64,000 nucleotides of DNA from positions 2,418,001 through 2,482,000 of the forward strand of contig NZ_CP047156.1 in the NCBI RefSeq assembly GCF_009834025.1, written 5' to 3'. The notes under the pieces were generated by a model, which saw nothing but the letters and a program-made list of their open reading frames with translations, was not told the DNA's origin and did no database searches. This document shows, piece after piece, positions 52,307-63,321 of the stretch (position 1 is the first letter of the stretch; the number at the start of each line of letters is the position of its first letter). The translations under genes and the position numbers were made by a program. This DNA comes from Epidermidibacterium keratini. Lineage in GTDB: Bacteria > Actinomycetota > Actinomycetes > Mycobacteriales > Antricoccaceae.

Positions 52307-53893
52307 CTAACGCCCCGCGTCGCCGAGCCGCCGCAGCACCGTGCGGGTCACCTGCTCGACGAACCAGTCCTGGTGGATCAGGCCCGCCACCCACTCGCAC
52401 ACGCCGGCGTTGAACACGGTTCCTTTGCCGCGGCTGAAGGTGGCCATCATCGCCGAGCCGTAGCCCGGTCGGGGTCGGCCACGCCCATCGAGCTCGTGCG
52501 GGCGGAACGTCGCCGCGCCGTCGAAGTCCTCGACGTCGCCGAGCGGGACCGTGCCGTCCCACCTGTCGACCTCGGCCTGGATGGCCGGACCCATCGCGAT
52601 GATCTCTAGATCAGCCGGCGCGTCGTCGGTGCCAGTCGCAAACGGCAGACCCCCGGCAAACGTGTAGTCGACCCCATCGACCTCGAAGGTCGCCACCCGC
52701 GACGGGGCCCCGCCGAGCAGGTCTCCGTAGTAGAGATCCGAGCCTTCCAGCGCCCAATGCTCCGGCCGGTAGATGACCAGCCCGCCATGACCGCGAGGCG
52801 AGGCCGTGCCGAAGCCGGCGTACACGCCGTTGAGCCCGCGCAATCCAAACGTCGTCGCAGAGGGATAGCCGGTCACCGGGTTGTCCCACGAGGTAGTCGT
52901 GAGCTCCTGCTGCGGCGTGCCGAACACCGGGTCCTTCTCCGGCGCTTTGAAACAGGTCTGGATGCCATCGGCGATCCGCACCTGCCACGTGAAGTTGCCG
53001 GCGAAGCGGGCCACATTGCCTCCGCCGTCGACGAACGCATCGACCGTGCGGCGCATCTGCGCCGACCAGTACTCGTCGTGGCCGACAACGACCAGGCAGC
53101 GGTAGCCATCGAGGACTGTCGGGTCTTCATGGAGATCCATCTGGGTCAGGTAGTCCAGCGTGATGCCTTCGCGTTCGGCCCAGACCGCAAACGGCCGCTC
53201 GTACGTCGCCCAGAATGCATCGGCGTGGTGGCGCGAGAAGCCGCGTAGCCGAGCCCACTCCCACACCTCATAACGCGGATGTTCGAACGGCCCGAGGGGA
53301 GTCTCCAAGCGACTGCGCGGGGCGCCATCCGGCTTGCGCAGGATGCCTCGAGCGATCGGCCGGCGCACTGCGGAGTACGGAGACGGTACGTCGACCAGCG
53401 GATCGTCGCCGAGTCCGCGGTAGTGGTTGGCCCCGCCCCAGTCGTTGTAGGCCAGCAGCGTCGAGGTGGTGAGCAGGAAGGCGTACGGCGACTGTGGCCG
53501 CGGAGCGCGCACGACGAAGAAGTGTTCGCGCTCCCACCGGTCGCGACCGGTGCCGGCGGTGATGATGACGAGGTATAGCCCGCTCTGGCAGTCCGGATCC
53601 ACCTCAAGGGTCGTCAGCAGCGGCCAGTCGCACCCACGCGCGTAGGCGTCATCGGGCGTCGGCGCCCACTGGGCGGCGAGCTCCTGCTTAAGCACGAGCT
53701 CAGGGCGTGCGCCGTCGCGAACTACCCGCAGCGTGACCGTTTCGGTGCTGGCGATGCCATGCACCTGCACGTGCTCGCCGGGTAGATAGCTGAACTTATC
53801 GGTGTAGCACCAGGCTTCCGGGCCGGCTGGCTGGGTGGAGGGCCGTTCTGGATACCAGTCGGGTGCGTTCCACGCCTTGGGTGTCGCCGCCAT
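52307..53893 (-). CDS. N,N-dimethylformamidase large-subunit-like protein
   Basis: 528 residues from ATG 53893 (MAATPKAWNAPDWYPERPST). It matches the pattern of the dimethylformamidase beta-subunit-like family: WCYTDKFSYLPGEHVQVH (N-terminal beta-sandwich), YNDWGGANHYRG, YLTQMDLHEDPTVLDGYRCLVVVGHDEYWSAQMRRTVDAFVDGGGNVARFAGN, and DPVFGTPQQELTTTSWDNP. In DMFase the mononuclear iron is held by two Tyr and one Glu; I see Tyr and Glu residues in HDEYWS and nearby but cannot assign ligands. It probably hydrolyses an amide. Its ATG overlaps the stop of the DUF3830 gene (ATGA), so the two are translated together and may form a complex. Confidence 0.8.
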   Translation of the reverse strand: MAATPKAWNAPDWYPERPSTQPAGPEAWCYTDKFSYLPGEHVQVHGIASTETVTLRVVRDGARPELVLKQELAAQWAPTPDDAYARGCDWPLLTTLEVDPDCQSGLYLVIITAGTGRDRWEREHFFVVRAPRPQSPYAFLLTTSTLLAYNDWGGANHYRGLGDDPLVDVPSPYSAVRRPIARGILRKPDGAPRSRLETPLGPFEHPRYEVWEWARLRGFSRHHADAFWATYERPFAVWAEREGITLDYLTQMDLHEDPTVLDGYRCLVVVGHDEYWSAQMRRTVDAFVDGGGNVARFAGNFTWQVRIADGIQTCFKAPEKDPVFGTPQQELTTTSWDNPVTGYPSATTFGLRGLNGVYAGFGTASPRGHGGLVIYRPEHWALEGSDLYYGDLLGGAPSRVATFEVDGVDYTFAGGLPFATGTDDAPADLEIIAMGPAIQAEVDRWDGTVPLGDVEDFDGAATFRPHELDGRGRPRPGYGSAMMATFSRGKGTVFNAGVCEWVAGLIHQDWFVEQVTRTVLRRLGDAGR

Positions 53894-54393
53894 CAGGAGG
53901 TCTCTTCCGGTGTTCCGCGGGAGATCTCGATTCTCGTGCGTCCCTCGTCGAGCGTGGCACGACAGGCTTTCGCAAACTCCTCGAAGCCAGTCGTGACGCG
54001 TCCGACCACCGAGCCGACGATGCCGTCTTCCCAGAAGTGGCGCAGGTCGACCTCGTCGTACATGAACGCCAGCTCGTAGAGCGCCGCCTGGTGACCGCTC
54101 AGGCGATCCTCGGCGAGTGCGGCGAACCGGTGCGGCTCTGCCCCGAAGAACATGACGTCGCCGACCTTGGGGCGCATCGTCTGGTTTTGCGGTGCCGGGG
54201 GGCGGCCTTCTGCTGGCAGGAAGCAAAACACCTCATGGCCGTCGAAGCACGCGTGCGACGTGTGGGTCGCGACAGGCTCGGCGATCACGCCCCACACCCA
54301 CGCGACCACGTCCGGTGCTGCATTCCAGGCCAGCTCGACCTCGGCCTGGACGTCGTAGTCGGGCAGACCGACCTTCATCGTTGGGTGCCCCAC
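53893..54393 (-). CDS. DUF3830-family protein (cyclophilin-like fold)
   Basis: 166 residues from GTG 54393, with AGGAGGAGG 6 bases upstream. Features: AWNAAPDVVAWVWGVIAEPVATHTSHACFDGHEVFCFLP and GDVMFFGAEPHRF, as in DUF3830 proteins with a small beta-barrel. Function unestablished. Coupling to the dimethylformamidase-like gene suggests that it may act as its small subunit or partner; the known DMFase small subunit is of similar size but I cannot claim homology. It lies behind a 20-bp TetR-type operator at 54440-54459. Confidence 0.7.
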   Translation of the reverse strand: MGHPTMKVGLPDYDVQAEVELAWNAAPDVVAWVWGVIAEPVATHTSHACFDGHEVFCFLPAEGRPPAPQNQTMRPKVGDVMFFGAEPHRFAALAEDRLSGHQAALYELAFMYDEVDLRHFWEDGIVGSVVGRVTTGFEEFAKACRATLDEGRTRIEISRGTPEETS

Positions 54394-54439
54394 CCGTCCT
54401 CCTCCTGCGTTGCGGGTTGAGGCACGAGTCTCGCATATT

Positions 54440-54459
54440 TATCTATCAATCGATAGATA
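54440..54459. promoter_or_regulatory. TetR-type operator, site 1 (DUF3830 operon)
   Basis: Perfect inverted repeat TATCTATC-AATC-GATAGATA, 47 bases upstream of the DUF3830 start and just 5 bases beyond the tetR stop. Related sites lie at 55336 (16 of 20 identical) and 55272 (14 of 20). Confidence 0.75.
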
Positions 54460-54464
54460 CCTGC

Positions 54465-55214
54465 TTAGGGTTGCGCGGCGACGACCCACGGTGCGGGTGT
54501 CTGCGCGCTCCACAGCTGGTCGGCCAGCGCGGTGGCCCGGGCGCGGTTGCGGGCGTTCAGCGAGCGGAATCCGCAGAACCGAAAGCACGCATCGGCAAAC
54601 TCGACCGGCGCCACCTGCTCTTCGAAACCGTCGATGCGCATTCCGACGAGCAGCCCGGCCATGCGATGGGGCGCGGCAACCGGCAGCACGCCTTCGACTC
54701 CCTGGCGCGCAGCGCAGGCGGCCGCAAGCTTGGCGTACAGGCGCAACACCGTCGCGAACTGCTCGCGCCACTTTGCCGCGATCTCGGTGCGCGCCTCGGG
54801 GAGGCGGACGACGGTGCCGAGGCTCGCCGGAAGCAGACTCACGTGTCGGCAGTCAGCTTGAAAGAGCGCGTGCAGGCGCACGTCGTCGGCGGCGTCCTCG
54901 ACTGCGAGTGCCTGTGCCACCGCAATGATGGGAGCGCTTAGCTCAGTGAGAAGGGCGTTGAAGATCGCCGGCTTGGTGGGGAAGTAGTGGTAGAGCGAAG
55001 CCTGCTGCAAACCTGCTGCCTCGGCGATCTGGCGAGTCGAGGTCCCCGCGTATCCCTGGACGCTCAGTAGCCGTGATGCGGCGAGCAGAATCTCGCCCTC
55101 GGGTCCGAGCTGGGGGTGTCTGCTGGCTACCAGGCGCGGACGTCCCACGCTGCGTTTTGCCGGCCGTGGGGCGGACTTGTCATCTTCGGTCACCGGATTA
55201 CGCCGCTTGCTCAC
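54465..55214 (-). CDS. TetR-family transcriptional regulator
   Basis: 249 residues from GTG 55214. HTH in ILLAASRLLSVQGYAGTSTRQIAEAAGLQQASLYHYFPTKPAIFNALL, preceded by a basic N-terminal extension (AKRSVGRPRLVASRHP). The ligand domain has no recognisable signature. It lies between two gene sets (APC permease/ligase, divergent; DUF3830/DMFase-like, downstream) whose promoters share a palindrome, so it is probably their common repressor. Confidence 0.92.
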   Translation of the reverse strand: MSKRRNPVTEDDKSAPRPAKRSVGRPRLVASRHPQLGPEGEILLAASRLLSVQGYAGTSTRQIAEAAGLQQASLYHYFPTKPAIFNALLTELSAPIIAVAQALAVEDAADDVRLHALFQADCRHVSLLPASLGTVVRLPEARTEIAAKWREQFATVLRLYAKLAAACAARQGVEGVLPVAAPHRMAGLLVGMRIDGFEEQVAPVEFADACFRFCGFRSLNARNRARATALADQLWSAQTPAPWVVAAQP

Positions 55215-55271
55215 GAGCCCACTGTGTCACGCGCCGCGGATACGGCGAGCGCGTCGGGTGCGTGTCCCTTA

Positions 55272-55291
55272 TTTCAATCAATTGACAGTTT
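55272..55291. promoter_or_regulatory. TetR-type operator, site 3 (weaker)
   Basis: TTTCAATCAATTGACAGTTT, 14 of 20 bases as in site 1 (core ATCAAT-y-GA-y-AG). It lies 58 bases upstream of tetR, suitable for autoregulation. Confidence 0.4.
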
Positions 55292-55335
55292 TCTCTGTAC
55301 CAGACGCCGTCGTCCGTCTACTGTCACTCTGCAAA

Positions 55336-55355
55336 TACCAATCAGTCGATAGGTA
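55336..55355. promoter_or_regulatory. TetR-type operator, site 2 (APC permease operon)
   Basis: TACCAATCAGTCGATAGGTA, identical to site 1 at 16 of 20 positions, 22 bases upstream of the permease ATG. Confidence 0.65.
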
Positions 55356-55377
55356 TAGGCGCAGACGGGACCCCACC

Positions 55378-56889
55378 ATGGACCGAACCAGTGCACTCAC
55401 CTCATCCGGGCCTGACCAAAGGCCCGAGGGACAGCTGCGAAGCGGATCGGTCACGACCGCGCATCTGATCTTCTTCGTGGTCTCGGCGGCAGCCCCGCTC
55501 ACCGTGATGGCCGGCTTTGCGCCATTGGCGTTCATGCTCGGAGGCCAGAGCTCGCCGGTCGGCTATCTCGTCGCGGGCGTTACCTATCTCATCTTCGCCG
55601 TCGGCTTCACCACCATGAGCCGATACGTCCGCAACGCCGGAGCTTTCTACGCCTACATCACGCACGGGCTCGGCCGCATCGTCGGCGCGGGTGCCGCCGT
55701 ACTCGCCTACGTCGGCTACGTGCTCGCCGAGATCGGATTTGCCGCCGCTGCGGGACTTTTTGCCTCCACCACCTTGCAGAGCCTCGCTGGAATCACGGTG
55801 GGCTGGATCCCGTGTGCGGTCTTCCTCCTGCTGCTCGTCACGCTCGTGTCGTGGAGCCGAGTCGACGTCGGCGCGCGCGTGCTCGCGGTCCTGCTGATCT
55901 GCGAAGTCACGATCCTCGTCGTACTGTGCGTCGCGATTCTGATCAGCGGTACGCCGGAGGGTCTGACGCTCGAAGGGTTCAACCCGGCGACGTGGTCGCC
56001 CGGCGCGATGGCCTCGCTCTTCGTCATCACGTTCATGGTGTACGTCGGCTTCGAGCAGACCGCCGTCTACTCCGAGGAAGCCAAGGACCCCCGGCGGACG
56101 ATTCCGCGAGCGACCTATCTGGCGGTGGCCATCCTCGCCGTCATCTACTCCTTCGTGTCGTGGGCGCTGCTGATGGCGATCGGGCCGAGCAACCTCGCTG
56201 CTGCGTTGGAAGGCGACCACGCGACGCTGGTCTTCTCACTATCGCAGCAGTACGCCGGCACGGCGCTGACTCAGGTGATGGAAGTCCTGATGGTCACCAG
56301 CATCTTCGCCGGCGTACTCGCCGTGCACAACGCCGGCTCTCGCTACCTGTTTGCCCTTGGGCGCGAAGGCCTGCTGCCCAAGATCCTGTCGCATACCCGT
56401 GAGCGCACCTCGAGCCCAGGCGTTGCCGTCATCGTGCATGCGGTTCTGGTCATGGTGCCGATGCTCGTGCTGGCGTTTGCCGGGCTCGACCCCTACTCGC
56501 AGATCGTGATCTGGACAAACACGCCGGGTCTTGTGTCCGTGCTGCTGCTTCAGCTGCTCACCTCCGTGGCGGTGATCAGCTACTTTGCCCGCAACCCGCG
56601 AGGCGAACGCAGCTGGAACCGGCTCGTCGCTCCGGCGATCGCGAGCGTGCTGCTCTGCATCGTGATCTTCCTCGTCTGCTCGCAGATGGACTTGCTCACC
56701 GGGCTCAGCCTTGCCGGCAACCTCGCCATCTGCGTGCCGCTGCTGTTGGCGTTCCTCACCGGTGTCGCGTTCGCACTGCGACTACGCGCGACGCGTCCGG
56801 ACGACTACGCGTGCCTCGGCGCTCGTGGCCCGCAAGCCACGGGCCATGAGGACACCAAACCCAAGACCGATGCACAGGGAGACCATTGA
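55378..56889 (+). CDS. APC-family amino acid/amine permease
   Basis: 503 residues from ATG 55378; the open frame starts upstream but runs through the operator. About 12-14 membrane segments: FFVVSAAAPLTVMAGFAPLAFM, then YFARNPRGERSWNRLVAPAIASVL near the C-terminus; YVGFEQTAVYSEEAKDPRRTIPRATY is the typical APC consensus (GFE...A EE..nP.r.iPra). Imports an amino acid, amine or related amide. Its stop overlaps the ligase start (TGATG), so they are translated together. Confidence 0.9.
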   Translation: MDRTSALTSSGPDQRPEGQLRSGSVTTAHLIFFVVSAAAPLTVMAGFAPLAFMLGGQSSPVGYLVAGVTYLIFAVGFTTMSRYVRNAGAFYAYITHGLGRIVGAGAAVLAYVGYVLAEIGFAAAAGLFASTTLQSLAGITVGWIPCAVFLLLLVTLVSWSRVDVGARVLAVLLICEVTILVVLCVAILISGTPEGLTLEGFNPATWSPGAMASLFVITFMVYVGFEQTAVYSEEAKDPRRTIPRATYLAVAILAVIYSFVSWALLMAIGPSNLAAALEGDHATLVFSLSQQYAGTALTQVMEVLMVTSIFAGVLAVHNAGSRYLFALGREGLLPKILSHTRERTSSPGVAVIVHAVLVMVPMLVLAFAGLDPYSQIVIWTNTPGLVSVLLLQLLTSVAVISYFARNPRGERSWNRLVAPAIASVLLCIVIFLVCSQMDLLTGLSLAGNLAICVPLLLAFLTGVAFALRLRATRPDDYACLGARGPQATGHEDTKPKTDAQGDH

Positions 56890-58448
56890 TGACCACCACG
56901 TCGACACCACGCTTTCGCAGCCCACTGCACCTGCTGGAGCAGTCGGTGCAGAGGTTCGCCGACAAGCCAGCGCTGGTGACGTCGACACGCACGCTGACCT
57001 ACCGCGACCTCGATACGGAGGCGTCGCGCGTCGCCGCTGCGCTGCTCGCTGGTCCGGTCGATGCCGGCGACACGGTGTCGATCTACGCGCAGAATCGCTG
57101 GGAGTGGCTCGTGGCCTACCACTCGGCGCTCCGTGCCGGCGCGGTCGTCAACCCGGTCAACGTGATGCTGACGCCGGCCGAGCTCGGTTTCGTGGTGCAG
57201 GACTGCGGTGCCACGGCGATCTTCACCAGCGCCGACAAGGCAGATGAGGTGCTGACCGCGCTTGCGGACCTGCCACACGAGTGCGCGGTCATCGTCTTCG
57301 ACGAGGCACCCGACGGCGCGATCGCCTTCACGGATCTGTTGTCGTACGCCGGAGCTGGCGCACCGGTCATCGAGGCGGACCCGAAGAGCCCGAGCACCAT
57401 CGGCTACACCTCGGGCACGACCGGGCATCCGAAGGGCGCCGTACAAAGCCACGAGGCGGTCTTCTTGAACTGCGCCCTGACAGCGACGATGCACGCTCGC
57501 ACGAGCGATGACGTCGTCGTGACCGCGCTGCCGGTGCCGCACGTCTACGGCAACGTCGCCGTGCACAGCACACTTCTGGTCGGAGGCACCGTGGTGCTGA
57601 TGGAGCGCTTTGAAGCGGCCGCGGCGTTGGGGCTGATCAAGCAGCACCGCGCGACGATGTTCGAGGGTGTCCCGGCGATGTACTCGATGCTGCTCGCCGA
57701 GCTGGCCGCCAGCTCAAGCGAGCTTGACTCGCTGACGCGCTGCACGGTCGGCGGCCAGACGATCTCCGGCGCGACCATCGATAAGTGGGAGTCGATGAGC
57801 GGCGCCCCGCTCATCGAGCTGTGGGGCATGACCGAGCTGTCCGGGCTCGGCACCACCCACTCGGCGCACGTCCCACCCGTCGGCGGCTCGATCGGGGTGT
57901 CGCTGCCGGGCCTCGAAGTGCGGGTCAGTGACCTCGAGGATCCGACCCGATCGGCGCCGGCCGGGACCGCGGGCGAGCTCATGGTGCGTGGTCCGCTGGT
58001 CATGCTCGGCTACCACGGCAACCCTGAGGCGACCGCCGAGGCGATCGAGCCCGATGGCTGGTTGCACACCGGCGATATCGCGACTCAGGACACGTCGGGT
58101 TACGTCTATGTCGTGGACCGGCGCAAGGACATGATCATCACCGGTGGCTTCAACGTCTACCCGGCTGAGATCGAGCGGGTCATCTCGGCCCATCCCGATG
58201 TTGCTCTCGTCGCGGTGGGGCCCGTGCCGGATGCGGTGAAGGGCGAGCTCGCGTGCGCCTATGTCGTTGCGACTCCCGGAGCCACACCGACAGCCGAGGA
58301 CCTGATGGAGTACGCCGCCCGGTCGCTGGCTGCCTATAAGCGACCGCGCATGATCCGGTTTGTCGACGCGCTGCCGACGACCTCCACAGGCAAGATCATG
58401 CGCCGCGAGCTCATTCGCATCGACGCCGGACCCGACGCAGACGCGTGA
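56889..58448 (+). CDS. AMP-forming acyl-CoA synthetase
   Basis: 519 residues. ANL superfamily: P-loop GYTSGTTGHPKG with Y173, ELWGMTELSG (A5), GWLHTGDIATQD (A7), VVDRRKDMIITGGFNVYPAEIE (A8) and catalytic Lys in TSTGKIMRREL (A10). It activates a carboxylic acid to its CoA thioester with ATP. Similar to the long/medium-chain and benzoate-like acyl-CoA ligases; substrate unknown. Co-translated with the permease, so it may activate a carboxylate derived from the imported substrate. Confidence 0.93.
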   Translation: MTTTSTPRFRSPLHLLEQSVQRFADKPALVTSTRTLTYRDLDTEASRVAAALLAGPVDAGDTVSIYAQNRWEWLVAYHSALRAGAVVNPVNVMLTPAELGFVVQDCGATAIFTSADKADEVLTALADLPHECAVIVFDEAPDGAIAFTDLLSYAGAGAPVIEADPKSPSTIGYTSGTTGHPKGAVQSHEAVFLNCALTATMHARTSDDVVVTALPVPHVYGNVAVHSTLLVGGTVVLMERFEAAAALGLIKQHRATMFEGVPAMYSMLLAELAASSSELDSLTRCTVGGQTISGATIDKWESMSGAPLIELWGMTELSGLGTTHSAHVPPVGGSIGVSLPGLEVRVSDLEDPTRSAPAGTAGELMVRGPLVMLGYHGNPEATAEAIEPDGWLHTGDIATQDTSGYVYVVDRRKDMIITGGFNVYPAEIERVISAHPDVALVAVGPVPDAVKGELACAYVVATPGATPTAEDLMEYAARSLAAYKRPRMIRFVDALPTTSTGKIMRRELIRIDAGPDADA

Positions 58449-58452
58449 AGGT

Positions 58453-59238
58453 CTAGCTGTCGCTGGCCAAGCCCTGAAGCATCGTCGCGGTGTTGTGATG
58501 ATGGGTGCGCAGCCACTCCGGCGCGCCTGCAAGCCGTGGATCAGCGCTCGGCCGTCCGGCGGTGAGGTCGTCGAGGTAACGCAGGTCGGCGCTGATGCGG
58601 CGGCGTAATGCAGGTCCGTCGCCGATGCCGCCGTGCCCGGGCACGACCACCTGGACCTGGTCGGCAAGGTCTGCGAAGAGCTCGAGCCCGTGCGCGTAGT
58701 CATCGACCGGGGACTCGGTGTCCAGATCCAGGATCGGCACCTCGATGTCGGAGAGCATGTCGCCGGCGACGAGTACGCCGCTGCCGGGCAAGAAGACCGC
58801 ACTGTGGCCTGCAGCATGACCGTCGTGCACGGTGACCACGGCCGCCGGGCCGTCCCACGGGATCTCGTCGGTCTGCAGGGTGACGAGATCGGTGCACCAC
58901 GCGACGTCGACCTCAAGGCCCGACTCGGCTGCCTCCGCGGCATTGGCGGCCGCGTGTCGCTGAGCTAGCGTGATGGTGGCGGCGGATGCGTATCGCGGTG
59001 CATCTCCCAGCGCCGGGCGCCACAGGACGTGGTCCCAGTGCCAATGCGTAGCAAACCCCGCGCGGATCGCACGGCCCCAGCCACGGAGAGTCGCCGCCAT
59101 GGCGTCGATCTGCGTGACGCTGATGGCTGGGTCGATCACGAGTGCGCCGTCCGAGCCGTCGAGTACGACGGTCGTCGTCGTGGAGTAGTCATGGGTGGCC
59201 ACCAGCACGCCTGGCGCTACCTCGACGAATTCACTCAT
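58453..59238 (-). CDS. Metallo-beta-lactamase-fold hydrolase
   Basis: 261 residues from ATG 59238 (MSEFVEVAPGVLVATHDYS). Zinc motif THWHWDH (H65, H67, D69, H70), then GHSAVFL, VAGDMLSDIEVPIL and VVVPGHGGIGDG with the further ligands. Glyoxalase-II/lactonase-like. It converges on the ligase gene with a 4-base gap. A half-site GATAGATA (59241-59248) lies just upstream of its start, hinting at the same TetR control; this is weak. Confidence 0.88.
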   Translation of the reverse strand: MSEFVEVAPGVLVATHDYSTTTTVVLDGSDGALVIDPAISVTQIDAMAATLRGWGRAIRAGFATHWHWDHVLWRPALGDAPRYASAATITLAQRHAAANAAEAAESGLEVDVAWCTDLVTLQTDEIPWDGPAAVVTVHDGHAAGHSAVFLPGSGVLVAGDMLSDIEVPILDLDTESPVDDYAHGLELFADLADQVQVVVPGHGGIGDGPALRRRISADLRYLDDLTAGRPSADPRLAGAPEWLRTHHHNTATMLQGLASDS

Positions 59239-59275
59239 GCGATAGATACTAGGTCGCACGGGCGCCCAGCGACAG

Positions 59276-61443: not shown

Positions 61444-63321
61444 ATGAGCGAGACCGTCCACCACGACGACGCCGATCACGGCGCCCGGGCAAGCGGTGAG
61501 GAGTATGACTTCGTCGTCGTCGGCTCGGGCGCCGGCGGCGGCCCGCTCGCGGCCAACCTCGCGCTCGGCGGCCACTCGGTGCTGCTGCTCGAAGCCGGCA
61601 GCGAGCACGACTGCCCCTACTACGAAGTGCCGGTCATGCAGGCCTACGCCAGCGAGGATCCCGACCTGCGCTGGGACTTCTTCGTGCGGCACTGGGACGA
61701 CGACACCCAGCAGCTGCGCGATGAGAAGTACGTCGCCGAGCAGGGCGGCGTGCTCTATCCGCGCGGCAGCACCATCGGCGGGAGCACAGCGGTCAGCGCG
61801 ATGATCACCATCTACCCGCACGCGGAGGACTGGCAGTCGCTGGCCGAGCTCACCGGGGATGACAGCTGGGCTCCCGAGCGCATGCGCGAGCTCTTCACCC
61901 GCCTGGAGTCCTGGCGCGGCGTCGATGCCGAGCCGCTGCCCGGCGATGACGAGGCAACGCGCGATGCCAAAGCCGAGCACGGACACGACGGCTGGTTGGG
62001 TACGACGCGCGCCAATCCGAAGGTCGGCGGGCGCGAACAGATGTTCCTGGACATCATCGGCGCGATGGAGCAGACCGCACGCGACCGCTTCGGCATCGCC
62101 GAGGAGATCTCGCTGCCGCGCGACCCGAACGCCGCCGACACCCCACAGGACTTCGAGGGCATGACCTTCATCCCGGTCGCCGTCCGCGGCGGTCACCGCA
62201 ACGGCAGCCGCGAACGCGTGGTCGACGTCGCCGGCCGCGCCGACCTCACGGTGCGCACCGACGCGCTCGCGACCAAGGTGTTGATCGAAGACGGACGCGC
62301 CGTCGGAGTCGAGTACCTCAGCGGCCCACGGTTGTACGCCGCGGCGCCGCCGTCCTCGAACACCCCGGCCGATCCCCAGCGGCACACGGTTCGCGCACGC
62401 AAGGAGGTCATTCTCGCCGGCGGCGCCTACAACACTCCGCAGCTGCTGATGCTGTCCGGAATCGGGCCGCGCGGCGAGCTCGAACGGCACGGCATCGGCG
62501 TACTCGTCGACTCGCCTGGGGTCGGCGCCAACCTGCACGACCGTTACGAGGTCTCGCTCGTCTGGGACCTCAATCGAAACTATCCGATATTCGATGGTGT
62601 CGAGCTCGATATTCCGAAGGATCTCGACAACCCCGACCGGCTTTTTGCCGAGTGGGAGAGCGACGGCGATGGGCCCTACGCGACGAACGGCTCGCTCGCT
62701 GCGATCGTCGCCAAGTCGAGTGTGGCCGGCGATGCCGACGACCTCATCGTGTTTTCGCTACCTATCGATTTTCATGGATATTATCCGGGCTATGCCAAGG
62801 ATGGCTCGGTCGCGCACAACCGGATGACGATCGTCGTACTCAAGGCGCACACCCACAACCGGGCGGGTTCGGTCACGCTGCGATCGGCCGATCCGCGCGA
62901 CGTACCCGATATCGCGTTTCGCTACTTCGACGAGGGTTCGCCGGGATTTGATGATGATCTGCAGGGAGTGGTCGACGGCATGCACATCGCCCGCGACGTC
63001 GCCTCGCGCCTTGGCCAATATGAACCGACGCCTCGGGTGCCCGCGGCGGACGTCGAGGGCGATGAGCAGCTGCGGGAGTTCGTGCGCAACGAGGCGTGGG
63101 GCCATCACGCGTGTGGCACCGCGAAGATCGGCCGCGACGACGACCCGAACGCCGTACTCGACGGCGACTTCAACGTGCGCGGCGTCGAGGGGCTGCGGGT
63201 CGTGGATGCGAGCGTCTTCCCCGACATTCCGGGATTCTTCATCGCCTCGGCGGTCTACCTCGTCGCCGAGAAGGCCAGCGACGTCATCCTCGCGCAGTAC
63301 GCCGCCGATGAGCGCGACTGA
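61444..63321 (+). CDS. GMC-family FAD-dependent oxidoreductase
   Basis: 625 residues from ATG 61444 (MSETVHHDD); GTG 61438 also possible. FAD-binding GxGxxG in YDFVVVGSGAGGGPLAANLALGG, GMC signature 1 in YPRGSTIGGSTAVSAMI, signature 2 GGAYNTPQLLMLSGIG, and the C-terminal catalytic region WGHHACGTAKIG with DASVFPDIPGFFIASAVY. Oxidises a primary alcohol (choline dehydrogenase/cholesterol oxidase-like). Substrate unknown; no obvious partner genes. Confidence 0.92.
   Translation: MSETVHHDDADHGARASGEEYDFVVVGSGAGGGPLAANLALGGHSVLLLEAGSEHDCPYYEVPVMQAYASEDPDLRWDFFVRHWDDDTQQLRDEKYVAEQGGVLYPRGSTIGGSTAVSAMITIYPHAEDWQSLAELTGDDSWAPERMRELFTRLESWRGVDAEPLPGDDEATRDAKAEHGHDGWLGTTRANPKVGGREQMFLDIIGAMEQTARDRFGIAEEISLPRDPNAADTPQDFEGMTFIPVAVRGGHRNGSRERVVDVAGRADLTVRTDALATKVLIEDGRAVGVEYLSGPRLYAAAPPSSNTPADPQRHTVRARKEVILAGGAYNTPQLLMLSGIGPRGELERHGIGVLVDSPGVGANLHDRYEVSLVWDLNRNYPIFDGVELDIPKDLDNPDRLFAEWESDGDGPYATNGSLAAIVAKSSVAGDADDLIVFSLPIDFHGYYPGYAKDGSVAHNRMTIVVLKAHTHNRAGSVTLRSADPRDVPDIAFRYFDEGSPGFDDDLQGVVDGMHIARDVASRLGQYEPTPRVPAADVEGDEQLREFVRNEAWGHHACGTAKIGRDDDPNAVLDGDFNVRGVEGLRVVDASVFPDIPGFFIASAVYLVAEKASDVILAQYAADERD

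Follow-up and report, generated by a model that had tools for sequence, protein, structure and literature searches.

The window, by which we mean the whole 64-kb stretch of DNA analysed, lies within a complete 4.02-Mb actinobacterial genome. Between 52307 and 59248, the minus strand carries genes for a DMFA2_C hydrolase, a DUF3830 protein and a TetR-family regulator, the plus strand carries an APC permease and an AMP-dependent ligase, and a minus-strand gene for a metallo-beta-lactamase-fold hydrolase (MBL) follows. A Pfam search backs these gene calls with DMFA2_C, DUF3830, TetR_N, AA_permease, AMP-binding and Lactamase_B, and the GC content of the cluster does not set it apart. The genes and predicted sites are these:

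52307..53890, minus strand: DMFA2_C-family hydrolase, ~527 aa, a short relative of the dimethylformamidase (DMFase) large subunit (PF20254, E 3.7e-60)
53893..54393, minus strand: DUF3830 protein, probably of cyclophilin-like fold (PF12903)
54440..54459, plus strand: operator 1 (predicted), exact AmtR box CTAT-CAATCG-ATAG, 47 bp upstream of the DUF3830 start
54465..55214, minus strand: AmtR-like TetR-family regulator, 249 aa (TetR_N; AmtR structures the best match)
55272..55291, plus strand: probable operator 3, degenerate, TTTCAATCAATTGACAGTTT, in the tetR promoter, 58 bp upstream of the tetR start
55336..55355, plus strand: operator 2 (predicted), AmtR box with one core mismatch, CAAT-CAGTCG-ATAG, ending 23 bp before the permease ATG
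55378..56889, plus strand: APC-family amino-acid-type permease (PF13520/PF00324)
56889..58448, plus strand: AMP-dependent acyl-CoA ligase (PF00501/PF13193)
58453..59238, minus strand: MBL, regulon membership uncertain (PF00753)
59241..59248, plus strand: operator half-site GATAGATA by the MBL start codon, 2 bp upstream of the start

The spacing points to two probable operons: DUF3830 with the hydrolase, their genes 2 bp apart, and the permease with the ligase, whose genes share 1 bp.

Predicted operators

The first-pass annotation of this DNA had proposed a TetR regulon with two 20-bp operators matching at 16 of 20 bases and a weaker third copy in the tetR promoter. The two sites, 54440-54459 and 55336-55355, are indeed identical at 16/20 bases, and 100 dinucleotide shuffles of the window gave no match with 3 or fewer mismatches to either of them. 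Pattern matching over the 4.02-Mb genome with TATCTATC-N4-GATAGATA at up to 3 mismatches finds sites 1 and 2 only, plus a reading of site 1 shifted by 4 bp. The AmtR box has been given as tttCTATN6AtAGat/aA (PMC2723105), and PMC8864220 cites TAtCTGTCa-n2-cGACAGATAT as a further form from actinobacteria. Against the core CTAT-N6-ATAG, site 1 is exact, site 2 has one mismatch, and site 3 has two. The third copy is present at 55272-55291 with 14/20 bases shared with site 1 and 13/20 with site 2, and is probably a degenerate operator in the tetR promoter. A scan for the sigma-70 consensus gave no promoter matches and decides nothing.

One might attribute the matching palindromes to chance, or to some other regulator, given that a reversed-pattern control at 3 or fewer mismatches yields 2 matches per strand in the genome. 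Because of that control, the 3-mismatch criterion alone is weak, and the position of the sites in the two promoters flanking tetR has to be counted with it. A stricter pattern, however, leaves sites 1 and 2 as the only matches in the whole genome, with no control matches, and the palindromes adjoin the only AmtR-like gene, include an exact AmtR box and recur as the same palindrome at homologous loci. We regard a chance origin or a foreign regulator as very improbable.

The 8-mer GATAGRTA occurs 3 times on the plus strand of the window, at site 1, at site 2 and at 59241-59248. The last is the half-site that the annotation had placed before the MBL gene; it is there, and no second half-site is present beside it. 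For a regulator that acts as a dimer, a pair of half-sites would be the expected requirement. The MBL gene, which has a DUF456 gene 37 bp upstream on the same strand, was dropped as an assured regulon member because it has a half-site only, and its membership is uncertain. Elsewhere in the window, at 62759-62778, TACCTATCGATTTTCATGGA is a lone half-site inside an ORF resembling, on inspection by eye, a GMC-type oxidoreductase, and is probably there by chance.

The regulator and its homologues

In a PDB sequence search with the TetR protein, the six best matches are AmtR, with E from 5.6e-22 to 8e-18, and the next family follows at 7.6e-9. The depositors name 5e57, 5mqq and 6gy3 as AmtR, and 5dxz, 5dy0 and 5dy1 as TetR family only; in 5dxz, the residues of the recognition helix agree exactly with the AmtR numbering given in PMC2723105. 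Gln53, Ser55 and Tyr57, which contact DNA in C. glutamicum AmtR (PMC2723105), are conserved in the alignment as Q53, S55 and Y57, and the positions of Tyr58 and His59 differ, as they do in several AmtR-like homologues. A tree places the window protein among the AmtR-like sequences (97/92), at the end of a long branch; two distant paralogues are placed there as well. The sequence comparisons indicate that the regulator is probably AmtR-type and, given the long branch, a possible rather than an assured orthologue of AmtR.

Whether the same signal accompanies related regulators was asked with a matrix built from the two window sites only, so that the discovery scan made no use of the published AmtR motif. 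Among 19 loci of TetR homologues (33-42% identical, some of them sharing one genus), TTTCTRTC-N4-GAYAGAAA was found beside tetR in nearly all. Rescored against that consensus, 14/19 loci have a site with at most 1 mismatch and 17/19 one with at most 3, versus 0/37 controls, a comparison that is descriptive because the consensus was derived from the same 19 loci. The neighbours of these other AmtR-like genes include the urea-carboxylase-system permease (TIGR03428), UAAP1, UAAP2, urea-carboxylase-type proteins and allophanate hydrolase; an association of AmtR with urea-carboxylase-type genes has been reported earlier (PMC4222082). A second AmtR-like group in the same order (L105, L106, L108, L111, L117) has AmtR-like boxes and sits beside dipeptide-type ABC transporter genes, not urea carboxylase; the family model was checked in L105 only.

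In its own genome, the regulator appears to be local to the cluster, because that genome has no urea carboxylase above the model cut-off, no urease alpha subunit and no second AmtR-like gene (the best paralogue scores E 1e-8), and because four genomes of the same family have neither this regulator nor DUF3830. The lack of both urea enzymes is also why we dropped the idea that this genome handles urea as an end product.

Against a local role one could hold that the regulator reports general nitrogen status, which would make the module a scavenging set for nitrogen starvation and not a substrate-induced pathway. C. glutamicum AmtR has been proposed to be released by the adenylylated PII protein GlnK (PMC8864220), and the window's genome has one PII protein gene. 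The boxes, however, occur only at this cluster; general nitrogen genes lack them, as fits a regulator with a local role, and in M. smegmatis AmtR has a minor role, with GlnR as the main regulator (PMC4222082). We think a nitrogen-status sensor unlikely here.

The hydrolase, DUF3830 and the conserved module

A profile of 13 hydrolase homologues matches chains of the DMFase large subunit and of N-acetyl-(R)-beta-phenylalanine acylase, with E from 4e-22 to 1e-20. Three DMFase residues that take part in iron binding or are indispensable to the reaction, Tyr399, His519 and Glu521 (PMC7686228), have Tyr148, His271 and Glu273 as their aligned counterparts in the hydrolase, and these counterparts are invariant in 13/13 homologues. 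In DMFase, Tyr399 and Glu521 are iron ligands, His519 is catalytic and Tyr440 is the third iron ligand; no equivalent of Tyr440 was found in the hydrolase, the position falling in an unaligned stretch of the profile alignment. The hydrolase is probably iron-dependent. A single-sequence fold of it was discarded at pLDDT 36.

The DMFase large subunit (Paracoccus, PDB 6lvb) and the acylase (PDB 8i5a, 8huy) share with the hydrolase PF20254 and the Y399, H519 and E521 positions. The matching segments of the profile skip DMFase chain residues 41-338, and the pentraxin-fold domain II of the three-domain large subunit covers residues 74-337, so the hydrolase, ~250 residues shorter, lacks the domain II region. 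We rejected its identification as a dimethylformamidase for that reason and call it a family relative only. DMFase also needs a ~15 kDa small subunit for activity, whereas none of that type was identified here, and a DUF3830 or cupin gene adjoins the hydrolase instead.

The distance from DMFase and the missing domain II region leave some room for a different bond, for example in a lactone, ureido or guanidino compound, and the Novosphingobium cluster described below adjoins a urea-carboxylase/allophanate-hydrolase operon. Yet the two characterised structural relatives that were found both bear the name of an amide hydrolase, and the key positions are invariant, so we consider cleavage of some other bond distinctly unlikely. 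That the module imports and hydrolyses an amide is a reasonable inference from family membership, the conserved DMFase residues and the amide hydrolases that flank DUF3830 elsewhere.

The DUF3830 protein is 60% identical to a Novosphingobium protein and 59% to one from Thermoleophilia; a search of genome contigs found only one relative. Its best match by sequence is 3kop, which is cyclophilin-like, and a fold predicted from two sequences (pLDDT 66) also matches 3kop best, at E 0.027. A cyclophilin-like fold is probable for DUF3830, with weak support from the fold prediction. Elsewhere, DUF3830 genes adjoin amide hydrolases in 6/8 inspected loci (amidase-signature 5, M20 peptidase 1), loci that are not fully independent because they were drawn from four families only. 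DUF3830 belongs to a different family from the DMFase small subunit, and by analogy only may play a partner role. Three DUF3830-like stretches lie side by side within ~1 kb at G138:C1:6101604-6102570 (within L076), and such three-fold stretches occur in several genomes of one genus (G138, G158, G178, G196, G222, G240).

How much of the cluster travels together is seen best on plasmid pLA3 of Novosphingobium pentaromativorans US6-1, where an APC permease (59% identical over 467 aa), a DMFA2_C hydrolase (52%), an MBL and DUF3830 (60%) form one same-strand run beside a divergent tetR. The run continues into a succinate-semialdehyde dehydrogenase in place of the ligase, with the urea-carboxylase/allophanate-hydrolase operon nearby, and its TetR and its MBL differ from those of the window. 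Because they recur together there, permease, hydrolase and DUF3830 constitute a cross-phylum module. Inverted-repeat and matrix scans found no AmtR-like operator in the Novosphingobium and Thermoleophilia loci. In G280, however, the closest hydrolase (61%) accompanies an AmtR-like TetR gene, and a perfect AmtR box, CTATCGACCGATAG, lies in the divergent promoter before a run of ABC-transporter-like genes (by eye), a cupin and the hydrolase; judged from sequence, a predicted AmtR box has here become linked to the hydrolase a second time, independently.

The ligase and the MBL are linked to the module less firmly than the other three. The ligase matches only generic long/medium-chain ligase models, below their cut-offs; the nearest Novosphingobium ligase is beyond the operon and 28% identical, and the window MBL is only weakly similar to the Novosphingobium MBL, so that orthology is not clear. 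The pathway could then be limited to the three proteins whose conservation in Novosphingobium is strong (permease, hydrolase and DUF3830), with ligase and MBL as neighbours that have other roles; Rhodococcus has closer relatives of the ligase, in gene neighbourhoods unrelated to this one, and the MBL gene has its half-site only. On the other hand, the ligase overlaps the permease behind operator 2, and CoA-activating genes occur at other hydrolase loci, a CoA-transferase in Dinoroseobacter and Shinella and, in L067 and L068, a ligase of ~35% identity close to the cluster. A three-protein pathway is to our minds a possible but unlikely account.

Other hydrolase loci vary around the core. An APC permease gene is near the hydrolase gene in L065-L070, and in several of these an 838-849 aa CehA/McbA-type metallohydrolase lies between or beside the two (NCBIfam-confirmed in L070 only), possibly as part of a larger module. 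At L064:10841-11206 and L068:8613-8993, where DUF3830 is absent, a small Cupin_3 gene overlaps the hydrolase gene and may play the same partner role. At L044:6454-8934 and L045:6468-8948 (Dinoroseobacter, Shinella), a long CoA-transferase family III protein, Pfam-checked in L045 only, precedes the hydrolase. The permease has a 41% identical relative adjoining a primary-amine oxidase in Agrobacterium fabrum (L135:6977-10447).

Proposed pathway and comparison with known systems

The interpretation that we find fairly likely is that the regulator is an AmtR-type local repressor of a small amide-catabolism module. The TetR protein would bind the AmtR boxes in the DUF3830-hydrolase and permease-ligase promoters, and probably in its own, keeping the module off until a signal releases it from DNA and both operons come on. 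The APC permease would take up a nitrogen compound of amino-acid-like or amide type. The amide bond of this compound would then be cleaved by the hydrolase of the DMFase superfamily, which probably depends on iron and may be helped by DUF3830, and the CoA ligase would probably activate the freed acid. Several findings speak against this account: the long branch of the regulator, the four same-family genomes that have neither it nor DUF3830, the different TetR and the lack of an AmtR box in the Novosphingobium cluster, the absence of a close ligase from the operon there, and the missing Tyr440 equivalent. The sites, the AmtR similarity, the homologous operators, the conserved catalytic residues and the conserved module come from computation, and we infer the repression, the iron, the class of substrate, the role of DUF3830 and the ligase step.

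Of the scheme of import, hydrolysis and CoA activation in the first-pass annotation, the first two steps are reasonable from family and residues, and the ligase step is where the Novosphingobium comparison falls short. Its suggestion to look for co-conservation is answered in part, by permease, hydrolase and DUF3830 together on pLA3 but with no close ligase in the operon and no clearly orthologous MBL, and its TetR regulon with shared operators is well supported by sequence and sharpened to AmtR-type by the box, the PDB matches and the homologous loci. It had known of no pathway with this gene set, and none was found in the literature searched, which covered few of the subscription journals. 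That same literature had no mention of DUF3830 and no paper naming AmtR together with dimethylformamidase. The regulated gene set appears undescribed.

A stronger version, which we hold to be rather improbable, has a regulator of AmtR type leaving nitrogen control to govern an undescribed amide pathway. At the core of that pathway would stand an enzyme of two parts, with DUF3830 as the partner subunit of a short, iron-dependent, DMFase-like hydrolase; if true, this would give DUF3830 a function. Quite apart from that version, the cluster connects a transporter and a regulator with DUF3830 and with a hardly characterised branch of an unusual family of iron amide hydrolases, and the function of DUF3830 and of this branch becomes testable. 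Because the regulator has a known DNA signal and is tied to DUF3830, the hydrolase and a transporter, the inducer and substrate can be looked for with simple screens for induction and growth.

Regulator and DNA signal both belong to a known kind and are not new. Like AmtR of C. glutamicum and the AmtR-like regulators of M. smegmatis and S. avermitilis, the regulator belongs to the TetR family, shares the AmtR box and keeps the key DNA-contact residues, and its best structural matches are AmtR. Compared with known AmtR, its regulon is apparently confined to one cluster, in a genome without a urea carboxylase above cut-off, and its own promoter holds a probable operator, whereas C. glutamicum AmtR is not autoregulated (PMC2723105). 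With the AmtR-linked urea carboxylase/UAAP/allophanate hydrolase operons (PMC4222082), the cluster shares an AmtR-like TetR, the same palindrome and an amino-acid-type permease, but its enzymes are others and presumably so is its substrate. With this cluster, AmtR-type control would reach beyond the metabolism of ammonium, urea and creatinine.
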